A stretch of 25,183 nt of DNA, from positions 1 to 25,183 of the IMG/VR virus record IMGVR_UViG_3300042937_000629; one strand, written 5' to 3'. Positions 465 through 20,081 of this stretch are shown in pieces (the stretch's first letter is position 1; each line of letters begins with the position of its first letter). The notes under the pieces are model-generated. The model was not told the origin of the DNA and ran no database searches. It worked only from the letters and a program-made list of their open reading frames with translations. Source of the DNA: a virus. The position numbers were made by a program, and so were the translations under genes.

Positions 465-518
465 CTCTTTAAACCGGATTAAAAGCTCTCCTGCAGCACG
501 CCGCCGATTATGGCGGCG
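465..518 (+). promoter_or_regulatory. putative late promoter, element copy 1 (lysis module)
   Basis: The 21-bp element at 465-485 has left arm CTCTTTAAACC, centre base G, right arm GATTAAAAG. It is an imperfect dyad about base 476 (7 of 9 base pairs symmetric). Twenty bp downstream is GATTAT at 506-511, a -10-like hexamer with the key A and T, followed by GC at 516-517 and a predicted +1 near 518. The dyad centre would then be at about -42, where class-II-like activators such as Mu Mor/C bind. It precedes the endolysin gene at 570. The element is seen; promoter function is inferred. Confidence 0.65.
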
Positions 519-520
519 TG
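497..520 (+). other. 9-bp inverted repeat overlapping the predicted lysis promoter
   Basis: Perfect 9-bp arms CACGCCGCC (497-505) and GGCGGCGTG (512-520) flank a 6-base loop, GATTAT, which is also the predicted -10 hexamer. TTCGTTT follows. Transcripts entering from the upstream gene would form this hairpin. Transcripts starting at about 518 would not. It may act as a weak terminator or insulator; the U-tract is poor. A second, weaker hairpin (GGCGCTC...GAGCGCC) lies just downstream, before the gene start at 570. Confidence 0.45.
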
Positions 521-569
521 TTCGTTTCTGGCGCTCGGTCTTCCTGAGCGCCCAGCAGCAGGAGGCGCT

Positions 570-1067
570 ATGCGACCTGAAACCCCTCGCGGTATTCGCA
601 ACTTCAACCCTGGCAACATCGACCGCGTGGACGGTGTGCGTTGGCAGGGCCAAGCCACTGACCAGAGTGGCGATCCTCGCTTTGTCGTGTTCAACGGCCC
701 TCGTTGGGGTGTCCGTGCCATCGCTCGGGTTTTGATCACTTACCAAGATAAGCGCCGCGCCAAAGACGGCAGCCGCATTGACTCAGTACGCGAGTTCATC
801 GAGCGCTGGGCCCCGGCCGTTGAAAACAACACCAACGCTTATGTCAAAGCTGTAGCCAGCGCATTGGGCGTGGGCCCTGACGACGAGGCCGTCGACGTCT
901 ACCGCTACGAAACGATGCGAACCCTGGTGCTGGCCATTATCCGTCATGAGAACGGCCCAGGCCCATTGCCGGGCGGTGCTTGGTATGGCGACACAATCAT
1001 CGCTGATAGCCTCGCGCTGGCCGGCATCGTGCCCGGTGTACAGCACGGCAAGGCGGTGGAGGCATGA
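570..1067 (+). CDS. endolysin-like protein (RGIRNxNPGNI / 'structural protein P5' family)
   Basis: 165-residue protein opening with MRPETPRGIRNFNPGNIDR. The RGIRNxNPGNI signature marks a phage family often annotated as structural protein P5 or a lysozyme-like peptidoglycan hydrolase. The ATG at 570 is preferred because GCAGGAGGC sits a few bases upstream; an in-frame ATG at 510 lies inside the hairpin and lacks a ribosome site. It is the first gene after promoter copy 1 and overlaps the holin by an ATGA. With holin and spanins immediately downstream, the best role is cell-wall degradation at lysis. No N-terminal signal peptide is seen, so export would depend on the holin. The catalytic residue cannot be assigned by eye. 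Confidence 0.75.
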   Translation: MRPETPRGIRNFNPGNIDRVDGVRWQGQATDQSGDPRFVVFNGPRWGVRAIARVLITYQDKRRAKDGSRIDSVREFIERWAPAVENNTNAYVKAVASALGVGPDDEAVDVYRYETMRTLVLAIIRHENGPGPLPGGAWYGDTIIADSLALAGIVPGVQHGKAVEA

Positions 1068-1282
1068 AGCTGATCGCCGAGTGGCGTCGTTGCCACACCT
1101 TCTACAGCGTGCAGCTGGCGGCGCTGATCGCCCTGTTTGGCTTCCTGCAGGTCACGCTGCTGCCGATCTGGCAGGCGCAACTGTCCCCGACTGCCTACGC
1201 CACCCTCAACAGCGTGCTGGCCGGCTTGCTGTTTATCGCCCGCCTGGTCAAGCAGGGGCCGGAACAGGAGTCCCAGCAATGA
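1064..1282 (+). CDS. holin
   Basis: 72-residue protein with two hydrophobic segments: about residues 15-35 (VQLAALIALFGFLQVTLLPI) and 46-63 (TLNSVLAGLLFIARLV). The N-terminus is charged and the C-terminus polar (KQGPEQESQQ). Size, two-TM hairpin topology and location between endolysin and spanins fit a class II-type phage holin, which would permeabilise the inner membrane to time lysis. It starts in an ATGA overlap with the endolysin and ends in an ATGA overlap with the next small gene, so translation is probably coupled. Family assignment is from topology and context, not a specific motif. Confidence 0.75.
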   Translation: MKLIAEWRRCHTFYSVQLAALIALFGFLQVTLLPIWQAQLSPTAYATLNSVLAGLLFIARLVKQGPEQESQQ

Positions 1283-1467
1283 TGCGCTGTCTGTTCGGCC
1301 GCCTCCTGGTGGCCATCGCCGATCTGCTGCCAAGGCCCTGGATGTCCAGTGTCCGTTATCTGCAGGAATGGCCCCAGGTGCGCCCCGGCAAGTCGGGTGT
1401 GGCAGCTGCTCGCCGCGCCGCCCGCAAGGCACGCAATCGCCGGAGGCAGCGCCATGGTCGGGCTTAA
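1279..1467 (+). CDS. small basic protein in lysis cassette, unknown function
   Basis: 62-residue reading frame starting MMRCLFGRLLVAIADLLPRP. The first ATG (1279) overlaps the holin stop and a second follows at 1282. The N-terminal third is hydrophobic or amphipathic; the C-terminus is strongly basic (AAARRAARKARNRRRQR). It overlaps the Rz-like gene by 14 bases. I do not recognise a family. The coupled start, filling of the gap between holin and spanin, and absence of another candidate here support it being real. It might be a lysis modulator or an RNA-binding peptide, but nothing in the sequence decides this. Confidence 0.5.
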   Translation: MMRCLFGRLLVAIADLLPRPWMSSVRYLQEWPQVRPGKSGVAAARRAARKARNRRRQRHGRA

Positions 1468-2059
1468 GAATCAGCCCCAGCAGGTGCTGCTCGGCCTGCT
1501 GGCCTGCCTGCTCTGTGCCTGCGCAGCCGGTGCCATCGGCTACGGCTTCGGTGCCCGCCATGCCGAGGCCCTGGGCAATGCCAGCCTGGATCGCCTCAAA
1601 GCCGAGCACGCCGAGCAGGCACGACTGGTGGCCATCGACAGCCGCGTGCAGCTTTTGCAGCAAGTCGAGCGCGCCAACCAGGCCGAAGAGAAGCTGCTGG
1701 GCCAGCAGTCCGGGCACGACCAGGAACACCAACAGCTCAAGGAGCGCACCACTCATGTCACGACTGTCTATCGGCCGGCACCAGCTGCTGCGCCTGTTGT
1801 TATCCCTCGCTGCGTGTTCACTGCTGGCTGGGTGCGCGACTTCAACCTCGCCCTCGGTGCCGGTTTGCCCGCCGCAGAAATCAGCACCGCTGCCTCCGGC
1901 ACTGCTCAAGCGGCCTGGCCCAACCCCGGTGCTGACGCCGAACTACTGGAAAGCGGTGTCACTCCAGCAGACATCCTGGCCCACGCCCAGGACTACGGCC
2001 GCTGGGCCCGCAACAACCTCTCCCAAATCAACGCCTTGCTCGATCTGCAAAAGGACTGA
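1454..2059 (+). CDS. Rz-like inner-membrane spanin (i-spanin)
   Basis: 201 residues from ATG 1454, with GGAGG eight bases upstream. An N-terminal membrane anchor (about residues 10-32, VLLGLLACLLCACAAGAIGYG) is followed by a long helical, charged periplasmic region rich in Q, E and A (about 37-100) able to form a coiled coil. The C-terminal part (DFNLALGAGLP, then ILAHAQDYGRWARNNLSQINALLDLQ) is typical of Pseudomonas phage Rz-like proteins. The lipoprotein Rz1 is encoded in the +1 frame inside its 3' part. Role: pairing with Rz1 across the periplasm to disrupt the outer membrane after endolysin action. The frame upstream of 1454 is open but lies over the small gene, so the earlier ATG at 1349 was rejected. 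Confidence 0.75.
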   Translation: MVGLKNQPQQVLLGLLACLLCACAAGAIGYGFGARHAEALGNASLDRLKAEHAEQARLVAIDSRVQLLQQVERANQAEEKLLGQQSGHDQEHQQLKERTTHVTTVYRPAPAAAPVVIPRCVFTAGWVRDFNLALGAGLPAAEISTAASGTAQAAWPNPGADAELLESGVTPADILAHAQDYGRWARNNLSQINALLDLQKD

Positions 2060-2075
2060 CACCACATGGATGTAG
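1755..2075 (+). CDS. Rz1-like outer-membrane lipoprotein spanin (o-spanin), nested
   Basis: 106-residue frame almost wholly nested in the Rz-like gene, in another frame. It begins MSRLSIGRHQLLRLLLSLAAC and has a lipobox L24-A25-G26-C27, so it should be cleaved before Cys27 and lipidated. The mature part is short and proline-rich at first (TSPSVPVCPPQKSAPLPP, then KRPGPTPVLTP), as in Rz1 proteins. It extends 16 bases past the Rz stop and overlaps the zinc-finger gene by 10 bases. This nested Rz/Rz1 arrangement is common in phages. The C-terminal tail beyond residue 60 is low in recognisable features and may be constrained by the overlapping Rz frame. Confidence 0.75.
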   Translation: MSRLSIGRHQLLRLLLSLAACSLLAGCATSTSPSVPVCPPQKSAPLPPALLKRPGPTPVLTPNYWKAVSLQQTSWPTPRTTAAGPATTSPKSTPCSICKRTDTTWM

Positions 2076-2284
2076 CTGACCTGGCTCTCGAAAACGACTT
2101 CACCGAAGCCGCCCTGCGTGCCCACGAATCCGGGCTGCAACGCCGCTCAGGCCCCTCGGCTTTCCGCTGCGAGGAGTGCGGCGATGCCATCGACGAGCGC
2201 CGCCGTCAGGCCGAGCCTGGTACCGAACACTGCACCGAGTGCAAAACCACCCTGGAACAGCTGAGCAAGCGAGGCCTGCGATGA
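2066..2284 (+). CDS. TraR/DksA-type C4 zinc-finger protein
   Basis: 72 residues with a C4 zinc finger: C35-x2-C38 and C56-x2-C59, in CEECGDAIDERRRQA and HCTECK. This is the C-terminal zinc-finger pattern of the TraR/DksA family. The N-terminal helix carries acidic residues (MDVADLALENDF), consistent with TraR, which enters the RNA polymerase secondary channel and mimics DksA plus ppGpp. A small phage TraR homologue could redirect host RNA polymerase during late expression. AAAAGGAC precedes the ATG. It overlaps the end of Rz1 and the start of the next gene (ATGA). Family assignment is firm; an effect on transcription is inferred from the family. Confidence 0.85.
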   Translation: MDVADLALENDFTEAALRAHESGLQRRSGPSAFRCEECGDAIDERRRQAEPGTEHCTECKTTLEQLSKRGLR

Positions 2285-2673
2285 ATATCTCCATTGAGTT
2301 CTGGCAACTCGTCAGCTTGCTACTGGGCTTCTTCGCCTTTCTTGGGGCCGCCGGAAAGATGCTCCTAGGACAGATTGATCAGCGCCTGGAAACCCGCTTC
2401 GCGTCCATGGAAGAGGCCCGCAAACTCAGCACGCTGCACTGGGACTCGCGCTTCTCCGCCTTGCTGAATCAGTCCAAGGAAGACGCCGATGCTGTGCGCC
2501 AGCTCGAACGCGATCTGATGGAATTGCGCGCCGAACTGCCGGAGCGCTACCTGCGCCGAGAGGATTACATCCGAGGCCAAAGCATCATCGAAGCCAAGCT
2601 CGACGGGCTGGCCATGAAAATTGAGAACGCCCGAATGCGCGTACTGTTAAACGGAGGCAACCATGCAAATTGA
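2281..2673 (+). CDS. Mu gp25-like (DUF2730-like) membrane-anchored coiled-coil protein
   Basis: 130 residues from the ATGA-coupled ATG at 2281. One N-terminal TM segment (about residues 6-26, EFWQLVSLLLGFFAFLGAAGKML) is followed by a charged, largely helical region with heptad character (ERDLMELRAELPERYLRRED). Size, topology and position just ahead of the Mu gp26/gp27-like genes match the small Mu gp25/DUF2730 group. The function of that group is unknown. The start at 2176 in the same frame was rejected because it lies within the zinc-finger gene and lacks a ribosome site. Confidence 0.6.
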   Translation: MNISIEFWQLVSLLLGFFAFLGAAGKMLLGQIDQRLETRFASMEEARKLSTLHWDSRFSALLNQSKEDADAVRQLERDLMELRAELPERYLRREDYIRGQSIIEAKLDGLAMKIENARMRVLLNGGNHAN

Positions 2674-2971
2674 CCTGGCCAAAACCCGGCGCGAAAGCCT
2701 GCGCTGGCTGATCATCCTGACCCTGAACAATGCCCGCCCGGTTGGTGCCTTCGAGGGGCCGATTCTATACGTCGCGCAGAGCGAATACCCGGATGCCACT
2801 CCGTTGTAGATCCGCCGCGAGCTGGATTACCTGGCTGACCGGGGCCTGTTGCGCCTGGACAAGCAACCCAGTGGCAAGTGGTTCGCCGATCTGACCCGCT
2901 ACGGTACCGACATGGCCGAATACACCATCGACTGCGCCCCCGGCATCGCCCGGCCGCAGAAGTACTGGTGA
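2663..2971 (+). pseudogene. Mu gp26-like (VpaChn25_0724-type) protein interrupted by an in-frame amber codon
   Basis: From ATG 2663 (GGAGG just upstream) the frame encodes 102 codons ending at TGA 2969-2971, but codon 49 is TAG (2807-2809). Before it: MQIDLAKTRRESLRWLIIL...YPDATPL. After it: IRRELDYLADRGLLRLD...FADLTRYGTDMAEY...PGIARPQKYW. The continuous similarity across the stop to small Mu-like phage proteins with a winged-helix look (a C-terminal LTxxGxDMA and PGIxRP motif) indicates that a Glu codon GAG probably became TAG by one change. It lies between gp25- and gp27-like genes. It could be inactivated, read through in a suppressor host, or a sequencing error. The gene product's role is unknown in Mu. 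Confidence 0.75.
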
Positions 2972-2976
2972 CCGCC

Positions 2977-3549
2977 ATGGGCCGCAAGTCTTCAATCATC
3001 CGCCTACCCGAAGCGATCAAGTCCTATATCGAAGGCAAACTGGCAGAGGGCCAGTTGACCTTGGATGAGCTGATCAGCGACCTGCGTGCCCGCTTCCCGG
3101 AACAAGCCGAGGAAGGCGAGCTGCCCAGTCGGGCGGCGGTGCATCGTTATGGCCAAAAGCTGGAGAGGCGTTTGTCGGCGATCCGCGCCAGTACCGAGGC
3201 TGCAAAGATCATCCGCGCCCAGGCCGGCGACAAGGAAGACGCCCGCAGTGAGGCATTGACCGCGATGATTCAGTCCGAGCTGTTCGAGTCGATCATGGCC
3301 CTGCAGGAAGCCGGTGACGATGAGATGGACCCCGCCGAGCGGGTGGGTTTGCTGGCGACGGCTGCCAAGAACATCGCCACCCTTACGCGCAGCTCGGTCA
3401 CCCTGAAGAAGTACCAGAACGAAGCCGAGGAGCGAGCCCGTAAGGCGCTGCTTGCGGAGCAGGCCGTGAAGCTCGATGAGATGGGCAAAGCTGGCACCCT
3501 CAGCGCCGAGACCCTGCAGCGCATCCGTCAGGAGGTCTACGGGCTATGA
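2977..3549 (+). CDS. Mu gp27-like protein (DUF3486), probable small terminase
   Basis: 190 residues from ATG 2977 (MGRKSSIIRLPEAIKSYIEGKL). The N-terminal part has the feel of a helix-turn-helix or DNA-binding region (LPEAIKSYI..TLDELISDLRARFP...PSRAAVHRYGQKLE), followed by long helices with many E, A and K. This matches the DUF3486/Mu gp27 family, encoded directly before the large terminase in Mu-like phages and thought to act as the small terminase subunit. No clear SD precedes 2977; an in-frame GTG at 2968 is an alternative. Translation probably depends on the upstream gene, so the amber codon there might reduce its expression. It ends in an ATGA overlap with the large terminase. Confidence 0.8.
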   Translation: MGRKSSIIRLPEAIKSYIEGKLAEGQLTLDELISDLRARFPEQAEEGELPSRAAVHRYGQKLERRLSAIRASTEAAKIIRAQAGDKEDARSEALTAMIQSELFESIMALQEAGDDEMDPAERVGLLATAAKNIATLTRSSVTLKKYQNEAEERARKALLAEQAVKLDEMGKAGTLSAETLQRIRQEVYGL

Positions 3550-4874: not shown

Positions 4875-6367
4875 GCAGCAAAGGTCTGTGGGTCAGCCCC
4901 ACCGAGTTCGTCCGCTTCAGTGAGCCTGCCGCAGGCAAGGCCCTCACCGACCATATCGCCAGCCGGGGCCGCAGCTTCGACTCCCAGGCCCTGGGCATGT
5001 ACCTGCCCAACCCCGACCCGATCCTCAAGGCCCAGGGCAAGGACATCACCGTCTACCGCGATCTGCGCAGCCAGGCCCTGGTAGGCGGCAACATCCGTCG
5101 CCGCAAGTCTGCGGTGCTCGCCCTGGAGCGCGACCTCAAGCGCGGCAATGCCCCGGTGCGGGTCGAGCGCTTCATCCGCGACTGGCTGGCCGACCTTGAT
5201 CTCGACCGCATCATCCGCGAGCTGCTCGATGCGCCGCTGTTCGGCTTCCAGCCAGTCGAGCTGATGTGGCGTCCGCTGGGCCTGCACCTGGTACCCGAGG
5301 ATCTGCTGGGCAAGCCGGCCGAGTGGTTCCTCTACGATCAGGACAACCGCCTGCGCTTCCGGGCCCGCGATGCCGGCCTGCAGGGCGAGCTGTGCGACCC
5401 GCAGCGCTTCGTGGTGGCGCGCCAGGACGCGACCTACAACAACCCCTACGGCTTCGCCGACCTGTCCATGTGCTTCTGGCCGGTGGTGTTCATGAAGGGT
5501 GGCCTCAAATTTTGGGTACAGTTCACCGAGAAGTACGGCTCACCGTGGGTGATCGGCAAGCACCCGCGTGGCGCAGCGACCAGCGAAACCGATCTGCTCC
5601 TGGACAGCCTTGAGGCCATGGTGCAAGACGCCGTGGCAGCCATTCCCGATGACTCCAGCGTCGAAATCCTCGAAGCGGCCGGCAAGGGTGCCAGCGCCGA
5701 GGTATACCGCGAGCTGCTGGTGTACTGCCGCAGCGAGATCAACGTCGGCCTGCTCGGCCAGAACCAGACCACCGAGGCCAACAGCAACCGGGCCAGCGCC
5801 ACGGCAGGCCTGGAGGTGACCAAGGATATCCGCGACGGCGACAAGGGCATCGTCGCCGCTACCCTGAATGCCGCCATTCGCCGGGTGGTCGACCTCAACT
5901 TCGGCGAGAACGTCGCCGCTCCGCTGTACGAGCTGTGGGAACAGGAGGAGATCGACAAGACCCTGGCCGAGCGTGACAAGGATCTGACCGACGCAGGCGT
6001 GCAGTTCACCCCGGCCTACTGGAAGCGCACCTACAACCTGCAGGACGGTGACATCGTCGAGGCTCCCGCAGCCGAACCTGGCCCGGCCTTCGCCGAACCG
6101 ACCTTGCGACCGATCCTGGATCAGGCTGCGCTCGACCAGGTGATCGACAGCCTGCCGGCCGAGCTGCTCCAGGAGCAGGCTCAGCAGGCGATTGCTCCGG
6201 TGATCGAGGCGCTGCTGCGCGGTCGCTCGGAGACTGAGGCCCTGGGCCTGCTGGCCGAGGCCTACCCACTAATGGATGATCAGGCCCTGCAGCAGACCCT
6301 GACCCGCCTGCTGTTCATTGCCGATACCTGGGGCCGGCTTACCGCCAACGCGGATCGGGAGGACTGA
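4871..6367 (+). CDS. portal protein (Mu gp29-like, DUF935)
   Basis: 498-residue protein. Recognisable DUF935 features: ITVYRDLRSQALVGGNIRRRKSAVLALE, then LLDAPLFGFQPVELMW, FGFADLSMCFWPVVFMKGGLKFW-like text and the helical GQNQTTEANSNRASATAGLEV segment typical of Mu portal proteins. It would form the dodecameric ring at the head vertex through which DNA enters, docked by the terminase encoded upstream. The C-terminal 100 residues are A/E/L-rich and likely helical. Coupled by ATGA to the terminase and by a one-base TGATG overlap to the gp30-like gene. Confidence 0.9.
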   Translation: MSSKGLWVSPTEFVRFSEPAAGKALTDHIASRGRSFDSQALGMYLPNPDPILKAQGKDITVYRDLRSQALVGGNIRRRKSAVLALERDLKRGNAPVRVERFIRDWLADLDLDRIIRELLDAPLFGFQPVELMWRPLGLHLVPEDLLGKPAEWFLYDQDNRLRFRARDAGLQGELCDPQRFVVARQDATYNNPYGFADLSMCFWPVVFMKGGLKFWVQFTEKYGSPWVIGKHPRGAATSETDLLLDSLEAMVQDAVAAIPDDSSVEILEAAGKGASAEVYRELLVYCRSEINVGLLGQNQTTEANSNRASATAGLEVTKDIRDGDKGIVAATLNAAIRRVVDLNFGENVAAPLYELWEQEEIDKTLAERDKDLTDAGVQFTPAYWKRTYNLQDGDIVEAPAAEPGPAFAEPTLRPILDQAALDQVIDSLPAELLQEQAQQAIAPVIEALLRGRSETEALGLLAEAYPLMDDQALQQTLTRLLFIADTWGRLTANADRED

Positions 6368-7203
6368 TGGCCAAGGCACCCACCCCAGCCGACCTGCAGG
6401 CCATCTTCGGCCTGGAGCCCGAGAAGGCCATCGCCTACCTGGAAGCCAAGGGCTACGCCATCACCTGGAACTGGCAGGAGATGCTCGATCAGGCGCACGA
6501 CCAGGCCTTCACAGTGGCCAAGGCGATGCGCCTCGACCTGCTCTCGGATATCCGCGCCGCCCTGGAGACCGCCTTGCAGGAGGGACAAACCCTCCAGCAG
6601 TTCATCGAGACGCTGCAGCCTATACTGGAAGCCCGGGGTTGGTGGGGAAAGCAGGTGATCGTCGACGGTGCGGGCAATGCTGAGCTGGTGCAACTGGGCA
6701 GCCCGCGCCGGCTGAAGACCATCTACCAGACCAACCTGCAGAGCGCCTACATGGCCGGCCGCAAGGCGAGCATGGAAGACAGCATCGACACCCACCCGTA
6801 CTGGCGCTACGTGGCTATCCTCGACGGACGCACCCGGCCCAGCCACCGTGCGCTGAGCGGCAAGGTGTACCGCCATGATGATCCGGTGTGGTCGGCAATC
6901 TACCCGCCCAACGGCTTCAACTGCCGCTGCCGGGTGAGCGCACTGTCCGGTGCCGCGCTGAAGCGCAAGGGGCTCCAGTTGGAGAGCAGTGCCGGGCGCG
7001 TGCAGACCGAGACGGTGGAGATCGGCGTGGACAAGCGCACAGGCGAGATTCGCACGGCCCAGGTGACCGGCGTGCGAACCACCGACGCGGCGGGCAAGCC
7101 AGTTATGTTCCGCACAGATCCAGGCTTCAACCATGCACCGGGCACCGGCCTGGCCGAGGCGCTGAAGCGTAAACAGGCCGCTTCCGGCCTGCAGGAGGTT
7201 TGA
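6367..7203 (+). CDS. Mu gp30-like head morphogenesis protein (Phage_Mu_F domain)
   Basis: 278 residues. The centre contains the Mu F-type minor head domain signature: TIYQTNLQSAYMAGRKASME, then RYVAILDGRTRPSHRALSG and YPPNGFNCRCRVSAL, with the conserved DGRTRPSH and CRCR patterns. This family (also SPP1 gp7-like) is a minor capsid protein associated with the portal and needed for head assembly. The start is the ATG in a TGATG overlap with the portal gene, and a GTG-started gpG-like gene follows directly. The N-terminal 100 residues are helical. The order portal, gp30, gpG is the same as in Mu. Confidence 0.88.
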   Translation: MAKAPTPADLQAIFGLEPEKAIAYLEAKGYAITWNWQEMLDQAHDQAFTVAKAMRLDLLSDIRAALETALQEGQTLQQFIETLQPILEARGWWGKQVIVDGAGNAELVQLGSPRRLKTIYQTNLQSAYMAGRKASMEDSIDTHPYWRYVAILDGRTRPSHRALSGKVYRHDDPVWSAIYPPNGFNCRCRVSALSGAALKRKGLQLESSAGRVQTETVEIGVDKRTGEIRTAQVTGVRTTDAAGKPVMFRTDPGFNHAPGTGLAEALKRKQAASGLQEV

Positions 7204-7204
7204 G

Positions 7205-7681
7205 GTGTTTACCGTCCAACTGGAGCACCAACGCCTGCAGGAAACCCTGCGCACTATCGAGTGGGCAGTGGGCGACCTGGCCCCACTGATGCGCGGCATC
7301 GCTGCCGAACTGGCCAGCCAGACCGAGGAGAATTTTGAGGCCGAGGGTCGGCCAGATTGGCAGCCGCTATCGGATGCCACCACCAAACGCCGGGAGAAGT
7401 CCGGCACCTGGCCGGGGCAGATGCTGCAGGTGAGCGCGGCCGGCCTGGCCGCCTCGATCGCCAGCCAGTCAGACGACAGCTCGGCCCTGGTCGGCAGCAA
7501 CAAGCCCTATGCGGCCATGATGCAATTCGGCGGCGACCAGTCAGACTTCCCCCACCTGTGGGGCGATATCCCCGGCCGTGCCTACCTGCCAATGGATGCC
7601 GAGGGTCAGCTGCAGCCCGAGGCAGAGGAAGCCATCCTCGATCTGGCCATGGATCACCTGAAAAGAGCCGCCCGCCTGTAA
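7205..7681 (+). CDS. phage virion morphogenesis protein (Mu gpG-like)
   Basis: 158 residues from a GTG at 7205, with GGAGG within the preceding gene's end (spacing about 7). Typical features of the virion-morphogenesis/tail-completion family: ENFEAEGRPDWQPLSDATTKRR, a central VGSNKPYAAMMQFGG and a C-terminal IPGRAYLPMDAEGQL. In Mu, gpG takes part in tail/head completion. It ends the first late transcription unit. A 150-base gap and promoter copy 2 follow. Confidence 0.85.
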   Translation: MFTVQLEHQRLQETLRTIEWAVGDLAPLMRGIAAELASQTEENFEAEGRPDWQPLSDATTKRREKSGTWPGQMLQVSAAGLAASIASQSDDSSALVGSNKPYAAMMQFGGDQSDFPHLWGDIPGRAYLPMDAEGQLQPEAEEAILDLAMDHLKRAARL

Positions 7682-7834: not shown

Positions 7835-7888
7835 CTCTTTAAACCCGATTAAAAGTCTGCAGGCGGCTCGGGCGGCAGGCTGTGCGCA
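7835..7888 (+). promoter_or_regulatory. putative late promoter, element copy 2 (protease/scaffold/capsid module)
   Basis: The 21-bp element at 7835-7855 has centre base C and is otherwise identical to the other copies. The hexamer CAGGCT at 7876-7881 keeps the A at position 2 and T at position 6 of a -10 box, GC is at 7886-7887, and the predicted +1 is 7888, the A of an in-frame ATG. It would drive protease, capsid, connector, sheath and tube genes up to the terminator at 13956. In Mu a late promoter sits before the equivalent gene I. Confidence 0.65.
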
Positions 7889-9036: not shown

Positions 9037-9050
9037 GGAGTTGAGCAGCC

Positions 9051-10616: not shown

Positions 10617-10841
10617 ATGGATAACCAGCATCGCCAGATATCTGGCTACCGCGAACTGAGCCAGGCCGAGATCGATCAGATGAACGCCGTGAAGGCCAAG
10701 GCGGCTGAGGTGGGAGCGCTACTCGATTCGCTTTCGGCTTCAGCTGGCCTGGATCAGCGTTGGGTTGGTATCGCTCGCAGTCACCTGCAGCAGGGCTTTA
10801 TGGCGGCAGTCCGCGCCATCGCCCAGCCCACCACGTTCTGA
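10617..10841 (+). CDS. Acb2/Tad1-hairpin-like protein, candidate anti-CBASS cyclic-nucleotide sponge
   Basis: 74 residues, two predicted helices: about 15-41 (SQAEIDQMNAVKAKAAEVGALL) and 47-69 (DQRWVGIARSHLQQGFMAAVRA), ending IAQPTTF. The opening HRQISGYRELSQAEIDQMN and the RWVxIARxxLQxGxMAxVRAIAxP segment match what I recall of Acb2 (phage T4 Vs.4 and Pseudomonas phage homologues), which sequester CBASS cyclic nucleotides. Tyr11 and Lys26 fall at the positions I remember as ligand-contacting in Acb2. The protein is shorter in the inter-helix loop than the phage forms I recall. GAGGT lies 8 bases before the ATG. It is embedded between decoration and connector genes, so it should be made late with structural proteins. 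Function is inferred from family. Confidence 0.7.
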   Translation: MDNQHRQISGYRELSQAEIDQMNAVKAKAAEVGALLDSLSASAGLDQRWVGIARSHLQQGFMAAVRAIAQPTTF

Positions 10842-10849: not shown

Positions 10850-11281
10850 ATGCACTACTGCACCCGCGCCGATATCGGCAAGGCCATCCCGGAGCTGACG
10901 CTGATTCAGCTCTCCAACGATGACCCAACCGTCGAGCTGCCCAATGAGAGCGTGATCGAGGACGGCGTCCGCCAGGCTGAAGAGCTGGTGGACGGCTACC
11001 TGCGAGGCCGCTACGACCTGCCGCTCGATCCGGTACCGAGCGTGCTGCGGGATGCCGTGGTGTACCTAGCCCGCCACTGGTTGTACCAACGCCGCCCCGA
11101 GGGAGCGCTCCCCGAGGCGGTGAAGGACAGCCGCAAGGACACCCTCAAGCTGCTGGAGAGCATTCGTGATGGCGTGGTCACCCTGGGTATGCCCACGGGT
11201 GAGGCCGCACCGGAGCCGGGCAAGATCCGCGCTCGCGCTCGTCGCCAGCAGTTCGGCGATGACTTCCTGGGGCGCTACTGA
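10850..11281 (+). CDS. head-tail connector, Mu gp36-like (DUF1320)
   Basis: 143 residues from ATG 10850 (MHYCTRADIGKAIPELTLIQLSND). The helical core (VIEDGVRQAEELVDGYLRGRYDLPL..VPSVLRDAVVYLARHWLYQRR) is the DUF1320/gp436 pattern of Mu-like phages, a head-completion adaptor that sits under the portal. The earlier in-frame ATG at 10760 lies inside the Acb2-like gene and is rejected. A TGATG junction couples it to the gp37-like gene. Confidence 0.85.
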   Translation: MHYCTRADIGKAIPELTLIQLSNDDPTVELPNESVIEDGVRQAEELVDGYLRGRYDLPLDPVPSVLRDAVVYLARHWLYQRRPEGALPEAVKDSRKDTLKLLESIRDGVVTLGMPTGEAAPEPGKIRARARRQQFGDDFLGRY

Positions 11282-11751
11282 TGAGCCAGACCGAGCAGCT
11301 CCTGGATGCGATTGTCGAGCGTCTGAAGATAGCAATGGGCCGCAATCTGATGGTGGAACTGTTCCCGGAGAACCCGGCGCAGTACCGCCTCAACCACCCA
11401 CGCGGCGCTGTCCTGGTGGCGTTCGGCAAGTCGACCTTCGGCGGCTCCCAGGCCACTGATGCGATGTTCCAGGAGCGCAACCTGGTAATCAGCCTGACCC
11501 TGGTGTTCCGCCAGCTCAACGGCAAGGACGGTGCGGTCAGCTACCTGGACCGCATCCGCGACACGCTGACTGGATGGTGGCCACCGCATTGCGACCAAGC
11601 CTGTCGTCCGGTCTCTGAGCGTTTCATCGGTCACCTGCAGGGCGTTTGGCAGTACGGCCTGGATATCGCAACCCGTGCAACTCAATTGCAATCCATGGCA
11701 CCACCGGCGGGCGCGCCGCTGCTGCCACCCACCTTTGAGGGAACTCTATGA
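11281..11751 (+). CDS. Mu gp37-like protein (DUF1834), tail terminator/connector
   Basis: 156 residues. It begins MSQTEQLLDAIVERLKIAMG and contains the mixed alpha/beta body GAVLVAFGKSTFGG..., ERNLVISLTLVFRQLNG, YLDRIRDTLTGWWPP, FIGHLQGVWQYGLDIA, with the layout of the Mu gp37/DUF1834 family. Its position after the gp36-like gene and before the sheath indicates the tail-terminator or head-tail joining protein. One-base overlap with the previous gene and ATGA overlap with the next. Confidence 0.8.
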   Translation: MSQTEQLLDAIVERLKIAMGRNLMVELFPENPAQYRLNHPRGAVLVAFGKSTFGGSQATDAMFQERNLVISLTLVFRQLNGKDGAVSYLDRIRDTLTGWWPPHCDQACRPVSERFIGHLQGVWQYGLDIATRATQLQSMAPPAGAPLLPPTFEGTL

Positions 11752-13955: not shown

Positions 13956-13986
13956 GAAGCCCCGCCTAGTGCGGGGCTTCGCTTTT
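13956..13986 (+). terminator. Rho-independent terminator after the tail tube gene
   Basis: Perfect 10-bp stem GAAGCCCCGC (13956-13965) / GCGGGGCTTC (13971-13980) with loop CTAGT, followed by GCTTTT. It would end the capsid-sheath-tube transcript. The T-run overlaps the stop codon of the convergent minus-strand gene. On the minus strand no U-run follows the hairpin, so termination is mainly for + strand transcripts. Confidence 0.85.
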
Positions 13987-14176
13987 ATCCCTTGCGCTTC
14001 AGGGTGCTGATGTAGCCGCGCAGGTGGGTCAGTGCGGCGTGCTCAGGATTGAGTCCGCGCAGCATAGTGCGCCGCTCGCTGCCATCGGGCAGGTAGGTCA
14101 GCAGCTCGTCGCCGATCTCGATATAGCTGGCCGTATAGGTCTCGCCTTCATGCTCCAGGGTAACGTTTTCTTCCAT
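13985..14176 (-). CDS. small minus-strand protein between tube and tail chaperone, unknown function
   Basis: 63 residues from the ATG at 14176 (MEENVTLEHEGETYTASYIE), with GGAGG five bases upstream on the minus strand; the codon before it (GTG at 14179) is too near the SD. Body: IGDELLTYLPDGSERRTMLRGLNPEHAALTHLRGYISTLKRKG, a beta-rich first half and a helical basic end. It is the only convincing minus-strand gene in the window, lying between terminator and promoter copy 3, an isolated position typical of morons or small regulators. I do not recognise a family. The start lies about 30 bases from the 21-bp element, so the same activator or a divergent promoter might affect it. Confidence 0.75.
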   Translation of the reverse strand: MEENVTLEHEGETYTASYIEIGDELLTYLPDGSERRTMLRGLNPEHAALTHLRGYISTLKRKG

Positions 14177-14206
14177 CACAGCCTCCGCGCTAGGTTATGG
14201 GCGCTT

Positions 14207-14260
14207 CTCTTTAAACCAGATTAAAAGGCAGCGCCAGTGTTAGGCGCGATGCTCAGGGCT
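14207..14260 (+). promoter_or_regulatory. putative late promoter, element copy 3 (tail chaperone/tape measure module)
   Basis: The 21-bp element at 14207-14227 has centre base A and is otherwise identical to the others. The hexamer GATGCT at 14248-14253 keeps A and T, GC is at 14258-14259, and the predicted +1 is 14260, leaving a 47-base leader with GGAG nine bases before the ATG at 14307. It restarts transcription after the terminator at 13956. Confidence 0.65.
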
Positions 14261-14561: not shown

Positions 14562-14721
14562 TACCAGCCACCTCGACGAGTGCGAAGCCTTGCTTGCCAG
14601 GTGGTTCCGCTTTCAGCCCTCGGAGATCGAGCAGCTGACAGTAGAACGCTTCCTGATCTGGTGCGAGCAGGCCGAGCAGCAAATCCGCCAGCAAAGCGAA
14701 GCCAGCCGTGAGCAACCGTAG
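14560..14721 (+). CDS. frameshift extension of the tail chaperone (P2 E'-like)
   Basis: After the E-like stop at 14559-14561 another frame stays open and encodes DTSHLDECEALLARWFRFQP, then SEIEQLTVERFLIWCEQAEQQIRQ. The LLARWF...PxxxxxLxxxxLxxWxxxAxxQI pattern is the P2 E' (GpE) C-terminal module. It has no ribosome site of its own, so it should be made as an E-E' fusion by programmed frameshifting. Relative to E it is in the +1 (equivalently -2) frame. The shift must occur upstream of or at the E stop, within the overlap to about 14410; no slippery heptamer is obvious by eye. It overlaps the tape measure start by 14 bases. Confidence 0.7.
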   Translation, partial: DTSHLDECEALLARWFRFQPSEIEQLTVERFLIWCEQAEQQIRQQSEASREQP

Positions 14722-17098
14722 CCTTAGAGTAGGTCTAGAGATCGGCGCATCCGCCCGTGGGGTTCTTCCCCTGCTGGGCGGGGTGCGCCGCACCCTGACG
14801 GGCCTTGGTGACACGGCCAGCAAGCTGACTCGCCAGCATGCCGAGCTGGGTGCCTCGATCCAGCGCAACCTCGGTACGCTGGCACCCAGTACCGTCGCGG
14901 CGCTCAACCGCGACTATATTCGCCTTGGGCAAACCCTCGACACCGTTCGCCGCAAGCAAGAACAGCTCACGGCCCGTCTGGCGCGCCGGGATCAGCTGCG
15001 CAATCAGCGCGCCGAGTTGCGTTCCGGGGTGCTGGAGACCGTTGCTATCGGTGCCAGCGCGGCGCTGCCGGTCAAGCTGGCCATCGACTATGAGTCGGCC
15101 ATGGCCGATGTGAAGAAGGTGGTCGACTTCGACACGCCGGATGGCTTCGTCAAGCTCGGCGATGAACTGCTCAGGATGACCCGCACCTTGCCTTTGGCCG
15201 CTTCAGAGCTGGCGGCCATTGCCGCCAGTGGCGGTCAACTGGGTGTTGCAGCGGCGGATATTCCCAAGTTCACCGAGACCGTGGCGAAGATGTCCACGGC
15301 CTTCGATATGGCTGCAGAGGATGCCGGTGACTCGATGGCCAAGCTGGCCAACGTGTACCAGATCCCGATCTCGCAGATCGGTCGCATTGGCGATGCGATC
15401 AACCACCTGTCCAACGCTTCGCCGGCCAAGGCGCGCGACATCGTCCAGGGCTTGAATCGGGTGGGTGGTGTGGCCAAGCAGTTCGGCCTGGTCGAAACCC
15501 AGGCTGCAGCCTTGGTGAATGCCTTTGTCAGTTTGGGCAAGCCGCCTGAGGTGGCCGGTACCGCCATCAACGGGATGCTGGCGAAGCTGGCCACGGCCGA
15601 CAAGCAGCCGAAGAAGTTCCAGCGTGCGCTGCAGGAAATGGGCATGACGGCCGAGGGGTTGAAAGCCTCCATTGCCCAGGATGCACAGGGCGCGCTGACC
15701 AGCTTCCTGAACACCCTGAGCAAGGTGCCGAAAGCCGATCAGATGGGCGTCCTGGTTGATCTGTTCGGCCTGGAGTACGCCGATGATGTGGCGGTGCTGG
15801 CGGGCTCGATGGATACCTACGCCAAGTCCCTGGCACTGGTGAACAAGTCCTCGAACTACGAAGGTTCGATGGAGAAGGAATTCCAGGCTCGGGCCGAAAC
15901 AACCGAGAAGAATCTGCGGTTGCTCAAGAACAGCATGGTCGAGTTGGGGGTGAATGTCGGTGCCGCGTTACTCCCATCACTGAATAGCCTGGTTGATACG
16001 CTCAAGCCAATGATTTGGGGCTTTTCAACCTGGGCAAAAGAGAACCCGGAACTCGTCAGCGGCGTGATCAAACTTGTGGCCGGAGCTGTTGCGCTGAAGT
16101 TGGGCGTTGTCGGCCTGTCTTACGGGTTGAGCCTGGGAGCTTCTGGCCTGAACGGAGTGGGCATCGCGATCTCGCTGCTGTCCGGCAAGTTCACCATGAT
16201 GCGCGCCATGCTGTTGCTGGGTGGCCGTCTTGGCCCCTTCATCACCGGGCTTAGCCTGTTGCGTGGCGGGGCGATGCGGCTTGCGCCTGCACTTGGTATG
16301 GCGCGCACGGCGGTGCTCTGGTTGGGCCGCGCACTTCTGATGAATCCCATCGGCCTGCTGATCACCGGCATCGCTCTGGGTGCCTACCTGATCTACCGCT
16401 ACTGGGAGCCGATCAAGGGCTTCTTCGGCGGGCTGTGGACGGAGATCAAGGCCGGTTTCAGTGGTGGCCTGACGGGCATCCTCGGCCTGCTGATCAATTT
16501 CAGCCCGCTGGGCCTGTTCTACCGGGCGTTCAGCGGTGTCATGAATTACTTCGGGATCGAGCTGCCGGGCAAATTCACCGACTTCGGCGGCATGCTAATC
16601 AGCGGCCTGGTCAATGGCATTACGGCGAAGCTCAGCTCTGCCAAGGAAACGGTCGTCGGGTTCGGCAGTGACGTGGCTGGCTGGTTCAAGAGTACTTTGG
16701 GTATCCAGAGTCCAAGCCGCGTCTTCATGGCTGCCGGAGCCAACGTCTCGGAAGGTGCTGCGATTGGTATCACTGCCAAGCAGGGGCTGGTCAAGCGTGC
16801 CGCCTTGGGAATGGCAGCCGCGACTGCAGTCAGCCTTGCCACCCCGCAACTGGCTGCAGCTGAGGGGCCAGCTGCAACTGCAAGTCGCGTGGCCAACCTG
16901 GCACGAAGCGTTGGCCCTGCAGCTCTGTCAGGCCAAGCCAGTGGCGGCATCACCATCCACTACAGCCCCACGGTAACCGTCCAGGGCGGTGGCCCTGGTA
17001 CTCAGGAGGCTGTCCAGCAGGCCCTGCAGCTATCGCGTAATGACCTGGAGAAACTCATGCGAGAAGTCATCGCCGACCAGCAGCGGAGGGCCTTCTGA
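14708..17098 (+). CDS. tail tape measure protein (P2 gpT-like)
   Basis: 796 residues from GTG 14708 (MSNRSLRVGLEIGASARGVL), overlapping the chaperone extension. The N-terminal 100 residues are coiled-coil-like. From about residue 118 the tape-measure core follows (ALPVKLAIDYESAMADVKKV, LPLAASELAAIAASGGQLGV, PAKARDIVQGLNRVGGVAKQ, MGVLVDLFGLEYADDVAVLAG). Hydrophobic stretches near residues 455-500 and 545-565 (NPIGLLITGIALGAYLIYRYW) fit membrane insertion at infection. The C-terminus has a conserved STLGIQSPSRVF motif. It sets tail length and is probably injected ahead of DNA. The tail should be of moderate length, in line with about 800 residues. Confidence 0.92.
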   Translation: MSNRSLRVGLEIGASARGVLPLLGGVRRTLTGLGDTASKLTRQHAELGASIQRNLGTLAPSTVAALNRDYIRLGQTLDTVRRKQEQLTARLARRDQLRNQRAELRSGVLETVAIGASAALPVKLAIDYESAMADVKKVVDFDTPDGFVKLGDELLRMTRTLPLAASELAAIAASGGQLGVAAADIPKFTETVAKMSTAFDMAAEDAGDSMAKLANVYQIPISQIGRIGDAINHLSNASPAKARDIVQGLNRVGGVAKQFGLVETQAAALVNAFVSLGKPPEVAGTAINGMLAKLATADKQPKKFQRALQEMGMTAEGLKASIAQDAQGALTSFLNTLSKVPKADQMGVLVDLFGLEYADDVAVLAGSMDTYAKSLALVNKSSNYEGSMEKEFQARAETTEKNLRLLKNSMVELGVNVGAALLPSLNSLVDTLKPMIWGFSTWAKENPELVSGVIKLVAGAVALKLGVVGLSYGLSLGASGLNGVGIAISLLSGKFTMMRAMLLLGGRLGPFITGLSLLRGGAMRLAPALGMARTAVLWLGRALLMNPIGLLITGIALGAYLIYRYWEPIKGFFGGLWTEIKAGFSGGLTGILGLLINFSPLGLFYRAFSGVMNYFGIELPGKFTDFGGMLISGLVNGITAKLSSAKETVVGFGSDVAGWFKSTLGIQSPSRVFMAAGANVSEGAAIGITAKQGLVKRAALGMAAATAVSLATPQLAAAEGPAATASRVANLARSVGPAALSGQASGGITIHYSPTVTVQGGGPGTQEAVQQALQLSRNDLEKLMREVIADQQRRAF

Positions 17099-17970
17099 TG
17101 TGGGCAGTACTCGGCGATATCGAGTTCGAGGTGAAGTATCACCCCGGCCGGCAGGATGAGCGCTCAGCCGCGGACTACGCCCAGCATGCGTTGATCCAGG
17201 GTAAGCCGCGCTTGGAGTGGGTAGGCGACAGCCTCGACGAGCTGACCCTGGAGCTGACCCTGCACGCGCTCCTGGTCGACCCTGAGGCACAGATCCGCCG
17301 ACTGAAGACGGCGCTGCGGGCACATGAGCCGCTGCCGTATGTGCTGGGCTCCGGCGACTACCGGGGCGTTTACCTGCTCACCGAGGTGGGTACCGCCACG
17401 CGCCGGACGGACGCCCAGGGCCGGCTGATCTCGGCAACGGTCAGCGTCTCGCTGCTGGAGTACTCCGGGCAATACAAGAAGCCGTTGCCGGTACCGCGCG
17501 GCCTGAGCAACAGCCTGCTGGCGAACCCAGGCGCGCAGATCGGCGCTGCCGCTCAGGTGATCGTAACCCCCACGCAGCGCGTACTCGGCATGGCGCGCAG
17601 TGCCGGTAACCTGCTGCGCACAGGTGTCGAGGCCTACAGCCTGGCCAAGGCCCAGGGCAATAGCCCGAGCCTGCTGATGGGCCAGGCCAGCCTGCTGCTG
17701 AGCCTGACGGGGCAGGCACTGACGCCCTTGCTGGGCCTCCAGGATGCAGCCGGGCTGTTGAGCGATGGGGCTGACCTGGTACAGGTCGCCGCGCGCGCTG
17801 CCAGCGAGGTGCAGTACGCCCAGTCCGCCATGTCACCGCCCAGTCTGGAGGGCATCGTCAGCCAGGTGGAGTACGCAGCCGGGCATATGGAGGAGGCCCA
17901 GTCCACCCTGGCTGGTGCCTCAACCCGTCTGGCTAAGCTGGCCGCCGCCGTGATCACCAGGAGGGCTTGA
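17098..17970 (+). CDS. tail protein gpU-like with long C-terminal extension
   Basis: 290 residues in a TGATG overlap with the tape measure. Residues 1-125 match the P2 gpU domain (WAVLGDIEFEVKYHPG, LEWVGDSLDELTLELTLHAL, LPYVLGSGDYRGVYLLTEVG, ATVSVSLLEYSG). P2 gpU itself is only about 160 residues as I recall. The remaining 165 residues are A/L/G/S-rich, low-complexity and helical (AAQVIVTPTQRVLGMARSAG, LLMGQASLLLSLTGQALTPL), of unclear purpose. gpU is required for tail completion/baseplate formation. This longer form is known to me from some Mu/P2-hybrid phages but I cannot name the extension's function. Confidence 0.8.
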   Translation: MWAVLGDIEFEVKYHPGRQDERSAADYAQHALIQGKPRLEWVGDSLDELTLELTLHALLVDPEAQIRRLKTALRAHEPLPYVLGSGDYRGVYLLTEVGTATRRTDAQGRLISATVSVSLLEYSGQYKKPLPVPRGLSNSLLANPGAQIGAAAQVIVTPTQRVLGMARSAGNLLRTGVEAYSLAKAQGNSPSLLMGQASLLLSLTGQALTPLLGLQDAAGLLSDGADLVQVAARAASEVQYAQSAMSPPSLEGIVSQVEYAAGHMEEAQSTLAGASTRLAKLAAAVITRRA

Positions 17971-17971
17971 G

Positions 17972-18187
17972 ATGGCCGATCAGTACCTCAGCCACACCAC
18001 CCGCGAGGGTGAGCGCTGGGATCAGCTAGCGGTCACCTACTACGGCGACGCCACCCGCTATGAGCCCATCGTCCGCGCCAACCCGCAAGTGCCGCTGACC
18101 GGTGCCCTGCAGTCGGGCCTGACCCTGCGCATCCCGGTGCTCGATGTCGCCCCGAATAGCGAGGATCTGCCGCCGTGGTTCAAGTGA
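17972..18187 (+). CDS. tail protein gpX-like (LysM-type)
   Basis: 71 residues, with GGAGG before the ATG. TREGERWDQLAVTYYGDATR, then YEPIVRANPQVPL and SGLTLRIPVLD form a LysM-like fold typical of P2 gpX, a small tail/baseplate protein that may bind peptidoglycan or help hub assembly. The usual order U, X, D is kept. It overlaps the D gene by 13 bases. Confidence 0.9.
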   Translation: MADQYLSHTTREGERWDQLAVTYYGDATRYEPIVRANPQVPLTGALQSGLTLRIPVLDVAPNSEDLPPWFK

Positions 18188-19281
18188 GCGACATTCCTGG
18201 CCGCAACTCGGCCGAGCCCACCGTCTGGCGCATTGGTTACCAGGGCCGTGACCTAACGGCTGATCTGTCACCGTACGTCCTGGGCGTGACCTGGACGGAT
18301 TACCTGAGCGGCCAGTCCGACGAGATCAGCATCGAGCTGGAGGACGCCGATGACAAGTGGCTCGGCGTCTGGTATCCGGTCAAGGGTGATGCCTTGACCC
18401 TGTCCATGACCTATCCAGGGCAAGCACCGCTGAACTGCGGCAGCTTTGAGGTGGACGAGATCAACGCCAACGGCCCACCCTCGGTGGTGGTCATTCGCGG
18501 CTTGTCCGCTGGGGTCAGCAAGGGCGTGCGCACCCGCAAGGGTGTGGCCTATGAGAACACCACGCTGGCTGAGATCGCCCGCCAGGTGGCCAAGCGCAAC
18601 AAGTTCGACCTGGTCGGAGAGATCAAGCCCCTGCGCATCGACCGCATCACCCAGTTCCAGGAGCGCGACCTCGCCTTCATCACCCGCTTGGGCCGGCAGT
18701 ACGGCTATGCGGTCAAGCTGCGGGAAAACAAGCTGATCTTCACCGCCAAGTCCGCCCTGCGCGATGGTGCCCCGGTGCGTTCGATCCGCCGCCAGGAGTG
18801 CAGTCGCTACGACCTCAAGGACAAGATCAAGGACGTGTTCCGTACGGCTAAGAACACCCACCACGACCCGGACACCCAGAAGACTATCCGTAGCCAGGTC
18901 GAGGACAGCCGCGCGCCGGACAGCCCTGCCGGCATGGAGACCAGTGCCGACGAGCTGCGCATCAACCAGCGCGCGCCGGATGCCGACAGCGCCCAGGCCC
19001 AGGCCGACGCTGCCCTGAGTGACGCCAACGACGAGAGGGCCGGCGGCAGCCTGACATTGCCGGCCGACCGCCGCCTTGTGGCCGGTGCGGTGGTGGCCCT
19101 GGACGCCAGCTGGGGCCGCTTCGCGGGCGATTACCTGATCAACCAGGCCCGTCACAACAAGCGGCGCAGCAGCGGCACCACGGCCGACATCGAGATTCGC
19201 CGGGTGACGCCCGCGCCGGTACCGCCGATCCCGACCCTGGCCGGAGAGCCTACCCAGTCCAGTGCCGAGGTAACCGCATGA
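18175..19281 (+). CDS. baseplate hub protein gpD-like
   Basis: 368 residues from GTG 18175 inside the X gene. P2 D-family features: VWRIGYQGRDLTADLSPYVL, WTDYLSGQSDEISIELEDAD, GSFEVDEINANGPPSVVVIRG, then AYENTTLAEIARQVAKRNKF and ITQFQERDLAFITRLGRQYGYAVKL. The LTADLxPYV / SDxISIELED signature is that of late-control D proteins, a gp27-like tail hub. In P2, D is at the end of the tail cluster; here V and a PAAR gene follow. ATGA coupling to V. Confidence 0.9.
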   Translation: MVQVSDIPGRNSAEPTVWRIGYQGRDLTADLSPYVLGVTWTDYLSGQSDEISIELEDADDKWLGVWYPVKGDALTLSMTYPGQAPLNCGSFEVDEINANGPPSVVVIRGLSAGVSKGVRTRKGVAYENTTLAEIARQVAKRNKFDLVGEIKPLRIDRITQFQERDLAFITRLGRQYGYAVKLRENKLIFTAKSALRDGAPVRSIRRQECSRYDLKDKIKDVFRTAKNTHHDPDTQKTIRSQVEDSRAPDSPAGMETSADELRINQRAPDADSAQAQADAALSDANDERAGGSLTLPADRRLVAGAVVALDASWGRFAGDYLINQARHNKRRSSGTTADIEIRRVTPAPVPPIPTLAGEPTQSSAEVTA

Positions 19282-19721
19282 GCAGTGAAACCCTGGACGG
19301 CCTGCAATTCGGCCTGGTTAGCAAGCTGGACTACCTCAGCTGCCGGGTTAAGGTACGCCTGGAGGAGTTCGACGGCCTGGAGACCTGGTGGCTGAAGGTG
19401 CCCCAGCAGCACACTAAGGCGACCAAGAGCCGACCGCTGATGCCGGAGATCGGTGAGCAGGTGGCCGTGCTGCTGCAGCGCGACGGGGTCAACGGCGTGG
19501 TGTTGGGCGGGATTTACTCGACGGCCGAGCCGCCACCAGTGACGGATGAGGAAACCCACTACCTGCGTTTCAAGGACGGCACCACGGTGACCTACAACGT
19601 GCAGAGCGGTGCACTGGCCGTGAACTGTGTAGGCAGTGTGGCCGTCCAGGCCGCCACCACGATCACTCTGCAGGCCGGCGAGCGCATTGCGCTGACCGCG
19701 CCGCGCATCGACCTGAATTGA
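19278..19721 (+). CDS. baseplate spike protein gpV-like, short form
   Basis: 147 residues. An N-terminal OB-fold (LQFGLVSKLDYLSCRVKVRLE...ETWWLKVPQ, MPEIGEQVAVLLQRDGVNGVVLGGIYS) matches P2 gpV and VgrG-like spikes. A short repetitive beta region follows (VTYNVQSGALAVNCVGSVAV, TTITLQAGERIALTAPRIDLN) that would form a trimeric beta-helix. P2 gpV is longer (about 211) and ends in an iron-binding apex; no such apex is visible here, but a separate PAAR gene follows that could cap the spike. Confidence 0.88.
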   Translation: MSSETLDGLQFGLVSKLDYLSCRVKVRLEEFDGLETWWLKVPQQHTKATKSRPLMPEIGEQVAVLLQRDGVNGVVLGGIYSTAEPPPVTDEETHYLRFKDGTTVTYNVQSGALAVNCVGSVAVQAATTITLQAGERIALTAPRIDLN

Positions 19722-19728
19722 GTCCGTC

Positions 19729-20025
19729 ATGCCTGCCGCCGTCCGCTTGAACGATAGCTGTACCGGCCACGGCTGCTGGCCGCCTCGCGCCAATGATCAG
19801 GCCAGCGGGGATGTATTCATTAACGGGCGCGGCGCTCACCGCCAGGGCGATCACTGGGCCGCCCATACTTGCCCAAGCATTCCAGAGACCCATGACTCAG
19901 CTCTTGCAGTTGGCAGCCCGACTGTGTTCGTCAATGGCAAGCCGCTGGGCCGGATCGGAGATGCTGTGGCCTGTGGTTCGGAGGTGGCCACCGGCAGTGG
20001 CAACGTGTTCGCCGATGAGGGTTGA
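19729..20025 (+). CDS. PAAR-domain spike tip protein
   Basis: 98 residues: MPAAVRLNDSCTGHGCWPPR, DVFINGRGAHRQGDHWAAHTC, VGSPTVFVNGKPLGRIGDAVACG, GSGNVFADEG. The repeated VFxNGxxxxRxGD and AxxxG patterns, with several His and Cys (GHG, HRQGDH, AAHTC, ACGS) suited to metal binding, are PAAR hallmarks. PAAR proteins cap VgrG or gpV trimers and sharpen the tip for piercing the outer membrane. Gap of 7 bases after V. It ends the promoter-copy-3 unit. Confidence 0.92.
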   Translation: MPAAVRLNDSCTGHGCWPPRANDQASGDVFINGRGAHRQGDHWAAHTCPSIPETHDSALAVGSPTVFVNGKPLGRIGDAVACGSEVATGSGNVFADEG

Positions 20026-20027
20026 GC

Positions 20028-20081
20028 CTCTTTAAACCCGATTAAAAGCCACTCTCGGCTGGCTTCCCCACCATGGGCGCA
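20028..20081 (+). promoter_or_regulatory. putative late promoter, element copy 4 (W/J/I/fibre module)
   Basis: The 21-bp element at 20028-20048 has centre base C and is identical to copy 2. The hexamer CACCAT at 20069-20074 keeps A and T, GC is at 20079-20080, and the predicted +1 is 20081, the A of the ATG of the W gene, at exactly the same 33-base offset from the element as the ATG at copy 2. No terminator precedes it, so it boosts rather than restarts transcription. Confidence 0.65.

Follow-up and report, generated by a model that had tools for sequence, protein, structure and literature searches.

Bacteriophage Mu reaches late gene expression in two steps: the Mor protein acts at the middle promoter, Pm, which drives the C gene, and C acts next (PMC4287176). 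At Pm, a Mor dimer binds two 5-bp inverted repeats that flank a G/C-rich 6-bp spacer, with the centre at -43.5, and the promoter has a -10 element and no -35 element (PMC4390567; PMC4287176). An A/T-rich proximal UP element at -57 to -52 is reported to strengthen Pm and is auxiliary, not defining Mor binding (PMC4390567). C is the activator of Plys, PI, PP and Pmom, the four late promoters of Mu (PMC4461284). Here we analyzed a 21-bp element, CTCTTTAAACCNGATTAAAAG, that occurs four times in a virus contig of 25,183 bases (IMG/VR record IMGVR_UViG_3300042937_000629, classed as a possible fragment; this whole stretch is called the window below). The left part of the phage lies outside the record. 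Our analysis suggests that each copy belongs to a late promoter resembling Pm, and we consider it very probable that a single Mor protein drives the early-to-late switch at all four of them, with no second, C-like activator.

The window carries the genes of a contractile-tailed, Mu-like phage: a Mu gp27/gp28-like terminase, Portal_Mu, Mu F, protease, capsid E, tail sheath, tape measure, gp25/W and Baseplate_J. The 21-mer matched exactly at 465-485, 7835-7855, 14207-14227 and 20028-20048, always on the + strand and always intergenic with respect to the likely genes; copy 1 abuts a stop at 464 and copy 4 a stop at 20025. No further copy was found in the window at up to 3 mismatches, with the same result on the whole record, and 100 dinucleotide-preserving shuffles of the window gave no match. 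Copy 1 precedes the lysis module with its endolysin (phrog_873, E=1e-56), copy 2 a Mu-like protease followed by capsid E, copy 3 a Phage_TAC_7 tail chaperone followed by the tape measure, and copy 4 GPW_gp25 (gp25/W) followed by Baseplate_J, in an operon that also holds I and the fibre. Both the number and placement of the copies and the four modules assigned to them in the initial annotation, which had been made from the sequence alone, were therefore reproduced by the recount and by the gene matches.

Numbering the first base of the 21-mer as position 0, we derived a sequence logo from 94 non-redundant copies in public virus contigs. The -10 columns played no part in selecting these copies, so the logo is not circular. 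It showed a core, TCTTTAAA-N3-GATTAAAAG, then about 20 little-informative bases, and then an A at position 42 (97%), a T at position 46 (96%) and GC at positions 51-52. In the window itself, the only columns between positions 21 and 100 that are common to all four copies were A42, T46 and the GC at 51-52, and when quadruples of window positions were drawn at random, 0.01% of them had an A-N3-T in common at one offset. A -10-like hexamer, [CG]A-N3-T, lies at a fixed distance downstream of the 21-mer, and inspection of the sequence revealed no -35-like hexamer at the right spacing at the four promoters. In the sigma-70 -10 hexamer, the two most conserved bases are A-11 and T-7, four apart; because A42 and T46 have the same spacing, transcription is expected to start near position 53. 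The 21-mer appears, on these sequence grounds, to be the upstream half of a promoter. The four candidate promoters are the following.

465-485, + strand: late promoter 1 (lysis), 21-bp element; exact match, logo and Mu Pm geometry; 16-bp core TTTAA-ACCGGA-TTAAA at 468-483.
506-511, + strand: -10-like hexamer GATTAT of promoter 1, at positions 41-46 with A42 and T46 invariant; predicted +1 near 518.
7835-7855, + strand: late promoter 2 (protease, scaffold, capsid), 21-bp element; exact match; core at 7838-7853.
7876-7881, + strand: -10-like hexamer CAGGCT of promoter 2, from the Pm-type pattern; predicted +1 near 7888.
14207-14227, + strand: late promoter 3 (tail chaperone, tape measure), 21-bp element; exact match; core at 14210-14225.
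14248-14253, + strand: -10-like hexamer GATGCT of promoter 3, from the Pm-type pattern; predicted +1 near 14260.
20028-20048, + strand: late promoter 4 (gp25/W, J, I, fibre), 21-bp element; exact match; core at 20031-20046.
20069-20074, + strand: -10-like hexamer CACCAT of promoter 4, from the Pm-type pattern; predicted +1 near 20081.

The dyad had been centred in the initial annotation on the one variable base of the 21-mer. Seven of nine pairs are indeed symmetric about that base, but shifting the axis by half a base, to the midpoint of a 6-bp spacer, yields an unbroken run of five pairs (TTTAA/TTAAA), and all four window copies read TTTAA-ACCNGA-TTAAA, two 5-bp inverted arms around a 6-bp spacer. 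We placed the axis at the centre of the N6 spacer because the sites of two related phages are symmetric there: Pasteurella phage AFS-2018a, with TCTTTAAAGC and GCTTTAAAAT on the two sides of the axis, and B3, with TTTTCG-N6-CGAAAA. The variable base would then be a mere spacer base.

With the axis so placed, the element has the geometry of Pm. Using the primer coordinates in PMC4390567 together with the Mu genome, we located the Pm arms as AGTAA-AGCCGG-TTAAT and its -10 as TATCCT. The distance from the dyad centre to the -10 A is 31.5 bp both in Pm and in all four window copies; the inner three bases of the arms (TAA/TTA) are those of Pm, whereas the outer bases differ (TTTAA versus AGTAA/ATTAA). 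A minimal pattern written from Pm alone, TAA-N6-TTA-N25-A-N3-T, matched the window at exactly the four sites and nowhere else, where none was expected. In Mu it matched Pm and three other positions (0.45 expected per strand). In Komp_PAO1_1 (PQ287647), the nearest named phage that we found with the motif, it matched four sites and no others, and in the distant Klebsiella phage KP12 it found a site before each of the four late modules (about 0.1 expected per strand) and one match on the other strand, at 24023. The A/T-rich phage AFS-2018a has four module sites of the form TTTAA-N6-TTAAA, two of them with the fully symmetric spacer AGCGCT, and here the pattern gave extra chance matches.

These comparisons change how the element is to be classed. 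The initial annotation had set it apart from both the Mor/C type, given as TTAT-N6-ATAA, and the P2 Ogr type, and had postulated a new DNA-binding specificity. The core TTAT-N6-ATAA is indeed absent, all four copies having TTAA-N6-TTAA, but that core is the C type; the Mor site is AGTAA-N6-TTAAT. The late-promoter dyad of P2 Ogr/Delta is TGT-N12-ACA, and the 21-mer contains neither TGT nor ACA, so the distinction from P2 stands. The claim of a new specificity does not, since Pm has the same TAA-N6-TTA core at precisely the same distance from the -10, which points to a specificity of the Mor type. We group the element with Pm as one that would work like it, and not as a proven member. The likeness consists of the 5-bp inverted arms, the N6 spacer, the common core, the 31.5 bp to the -10 A and the lack of a -35. 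However, Mu has one known promoter of this kind, which is middle and not late and drives C, whereas the window has four, before structural and lysis operons; their arms are TTTAA/TTAAA and not AGTAA/TTAAT, their -10 is poorer, and they show no sign of an UP element. The C-activated promoters Plys, PI, PP and Pmom offer the other parallel, four late promoters served by one dimer of the Mor/C family, with the lys and I modules in common (PMC4461284), but Mu adds a second, paralogous activator for them, and has P and mom where the window has the tape measure and the baseplate.

In bacterial genomes, a 17-base scan returned a mix of prophage copies and chance matches. Among the matches listed, A42 and T46 were both present in 57 of 57 copies lying 5' of a module gene, versus 11 of 74 other matches (Fisher p = 2.5e-26), and the copies in host genomes sat in prophages only. 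In complete Pseudomonas genomes of 6-7 Mb, copies formed a single cluster spanning about 20-25 kb, with intervals of 6-9 kb between them; of the 79 Pseudomonas species sampled, 72 had no element at up to 1 mismatch. A scatter of copies through the host or through early genes had been named beforehand as grounds for rejecting a late-promoter role; what we found were prophage clusters only. The 17-base matches in Neisseria, Gallionellaceae and Neptunomonas were single copies with no module cluster and were set aside as chance or unrelated.

We then turned to relatives of the phage, a set of 27 larger motif-bearing records in which the element was counted at up to 2 mismatches. Four copies were present in 24 of the 27 records, three in 2 and one in 1, always on one strand, and a reversed-pattern control across the 27 records gave no match. 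Among viral copies, 124 of 127 lay 5' of a gene from the same four types. A PF08765 (Mor/C) gene was found exactly once in 26 of the 27 records and was absent from the remaining one; no record had two. This gene is encoded opposite to the late operons and mostly sits near one (left) end, as it does in B3, which agrees with the dimeric late activator that the initial annotation had expected to be encoded to the left. Mu has two genes of the Mor/C family (Mor and C), and B3, D3112, phiSHP3, KP12, AFS-2018a and Komp_PAO1_1 have one each. The closest relatives of the window (81-87% DNA identity, including records G018 and G002) carry mor where the record is long enough, and the phage of the window would be expected to carry it as well. 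Komp_PAO1_1 has the 21-bp element four times before the same modules, and one Mor, although its DNA identity to the window is only about 73% over 14.6 kb aligned. One record, G027, has a Mor gene and a single detectable element; its other promoters have probably diverged. A 2.1-kb minus-strand coding sequence is annotated over promoter 2 in Komp_PAO1_1 (5112-7241), where protease and capsid genes are expected, and is probably an annotation error.

The Mor of the relatives matches Mu C (9l0x) and Mor (1rr7/9l0y) by sequence. An AlphaFold model of one of them, a monomer with a predicted local distance difference test score (pLDDT) of 75 that was used for fold recognition only, gave low-E matches in a fold search only to 9l0x (C with RNA polymerase), 1rr7 and 9l0y (Mor). 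The predicted recognition helix starts with S-[LVM]-Q-[WFYH]-[IV]-Y in nearly all phages with TTTAA-type sites, with T-E-D-W-I-Y in B3 and with T-F-N-T-V-Y in Mu Mor; these differences between phages with different sites are suggestive.

In the mechanism that we propose, the early operon, which in this phage type would be inverted and run leftward, ends with the single mor gene. Each 21-bp element would act as the operator for a dimer of the Mor family; its centre lies about 42-43 bp before the predicted start, and it would take the place of the missing -35. Mor dimers would bind TTTAA-N6-TTAAA at the four promoters, and contacts between bound Mor and the RNA polymerase of the host would enable sigma-70 to work with a poor -10, [CG]A-N3-T. 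In Mu, Mor contacts the carboxy-terminal domains of sigma and alpha (sigma-CTD and alpha-CTD). The lysis, head, tail-tube/tape and baseplate/fibre operons would in this way be switched on directly by one early protein.

Several points weigh against this proposal. The -10 hexamer lacks the T at -12, which is unusual for sigma-70. The 94-copy logo showed no base preference upstream of the 21-mer, so there is no counterpart of the proximal UP element of Pm. Three of the 27 relative records have only 3, 3 and 1 detectable copies, and the window phage's own mor lies outside the record. The Mor tree, with long branches and low support, is too weak for a test of site-protein co-evolution, and we found neither a footprint nor a 5'-end map nor a mutant for phages of this type.

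The element could also be a late-promoter operator for an activator other than Mor. The binder would then be either a different DNA-binding protein made early or a second Mor/C paralogue encoded in the missing left part, and Mor would start a middle transcript only, as in Mu. Mu itself is two-step (PMC4287176), and B3-like early regions encode other small helix-turn-helix proteins, but one Mor/C-family gene in 26 of 27 relatives, two in none, and one in Komp_PAO1_1 argue otherwise, as do a site that equals Pm in core, spacer and -10 distance and the lack of a fifth element copy before a candidate C gene in the 27 relative records. We regard this alternative as improbable. That the repeats lie exactly on module boundaries, and are near-identical despite differing flanks, would also be expected of recombination linkers that aid the exchange of late modules among phages. 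A homology linker, however, has no need of conservation that skips 20 variable bases to the single columns A42 and T46; moreover, all copies are on the transcribed strand, and in the Pasteurella and Klebsiella phages the letters change while the geometry is kept. Such a role is very unlikely. Least probable of all, in our judgment, is that the copies are ordinary sigma-70 promoters or terminators shared by descent and working with no activator: a -10-like hexamer is present, but a suitably spaced -35 is lacking, the dyad is not followed by a run of T, and a near-invariant 20-base dyad exceeds the needs of RNA polymerase alone.

Other Mu-like phages have sites of their own. The 21-mer was absent, at up to 5 mismatches, from B3, Alteromonadaceae phage B23 and Rhodovulum phage vB_RhkS_P1. 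B3 has TTTTCG-N6-CGAAAA(G) at 11566, 19835 and 26818, at the holin, protease and tape-measure operons, and Fc02 has TTTT[CA]G-N6-CCAAAA at about 11701, 20113 and 25617, before the holin, protease and tape measure; aligned by eye, the -10 A of Fc02 is at the same offset in two sites and one base further in the third. Published RNA sequencing (RNA-Seq) of the beetrevirus Fc02 shows three late clusters after induction, the first from holin-endolysin (PMC9936078). B3 and Fc02 (Beetrevirus) resemble the phages with the 21-mer in having an inverted early region that ends in one Mor gene and, before the lysis, protease and tape-measure operons, an N6-spaced site whose -10 has the same offset (apart from the one Fc02 site), but they differ in their arms and have three copies and not four, there being no contractile baseplate operon. 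B3, of the same activator family by annotation, is the phage that truly departs in its site. D3112 has the word GTTGAACCCCTTCC at 10698 and 19742, both followed by CA(GG or CC)ATGGCGGCATG, and phiSHP3 has the word GTGCAAATGACCTG at 11191 and 19259, in each case before late operons. No clear N6 dyad was found in the shared words of D3112 and phiSHP3, which are likely late promoters of other specificities. A search for own late dyads in B23 and vB_RhkS_P1 gave nothing convincing. In a literature search of partial coverage, we found no published late-promoter motif for B3- or D3112-like phages, nor this late motif.

Two promoters of the window have additional features, located as follows.

497-520, no strand assigned: G+C-rich dyad CACGCCGCC-[GATTAT]-GGCGGCGTG enclosing the -10 of promoter 1, at the lysis promoter only; recognized from arm complementarity.
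570-1067, + strand: endolysin gene, phrog_873 as above; start picked from the sequence.
20081-20464, + strand: baseplate wedge gene gp25/W (PF04965), with its ATG at the predicted +1.

The dyad around the lysis -10 is a perfect 9-bp one. Arms with at least 8 of 9 complementary bases were found in 45 of 50 lysis copies versus 0 of 137 other copies, and compensatory changes, on both sides, were seen in two pairs. A hairpin in the RNA made from this promoter is unlikely, as the +1 would fall inside the right arm; the dyad could instead be bound by a protein or form a structure in transcripts that read through it. For the endolysin, the start at 570 is favoured by an AGGAGG upstream, the alternative ATG at 510 overlapping the -10. 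Directly 5' of the lysis promoter lies a gene for a membrane-like protein (60-464; phrog_11791, function unassigned).

At promoter 4, 28 of the 31 distinct type-4 copies have the gp25/W ATG at position 53 or 54. Because this coincides with the predicted +1, the mRNA is expected to be leaderless. The protease open reading frame has an in-frame ATG at 7888, the predicted +1 of promoter 2 in this phage, and in KP12 (baseplate) and B3 (protease) an ATG is at or one base from the same position. These positions suggest leaderless late mRNAs at promoter 4 and, in this phage, at promoter 2. It is possible that Mu-like phages outside Mu run a two-stage programme in which one Mor directly fires all late operons from promoters that are nearly identical, combined with leaderless baseplate mRNAs and a selected lysis -10 dyad through which a second factor, or DNA structure, could delay lysis; we offer this combined scheme tentatively and regard it as rather doubtful.

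Elsewhere in the window, a 64-codon open reading frame on the - strand (13985-14179) begins 28 bases upstream of promoter 3, is directed away from it and has no Pfam or PHROG match. Near the right end is a gene for a Mu Com-like zinc ribbon (24228-24464), with no fifth element 5' of it; a DNA-modification gene may follow it beyond the right end of the record.

What appears to be new is not the mechanism proposed here, which is known, but the regulon, the geometric rule and two additional features, the lysis dyad and the leaderless start. In the literature that we found, a Mor-type promoter is known experimentally only from the single middle promoter of Mu, and our analysis would extend it to the whole late programme of Mu-like phages of Pseudomonas, Pasteurella and Klebsiella. 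Late promoters in such genomes could be located by a simple rule, an N6 dyad with a -10 A at 31.5 bp, and the different sites (TTTAA, TTTTCG and others) would provide natural activator-operator pairs for studying how the Mor/C helix-turn-helix reads DNA. Though the Mor tree does not resolve the matter, the relay of Mor and then C in Mu may be a derived state that arose by duplication from a switch with one activator.

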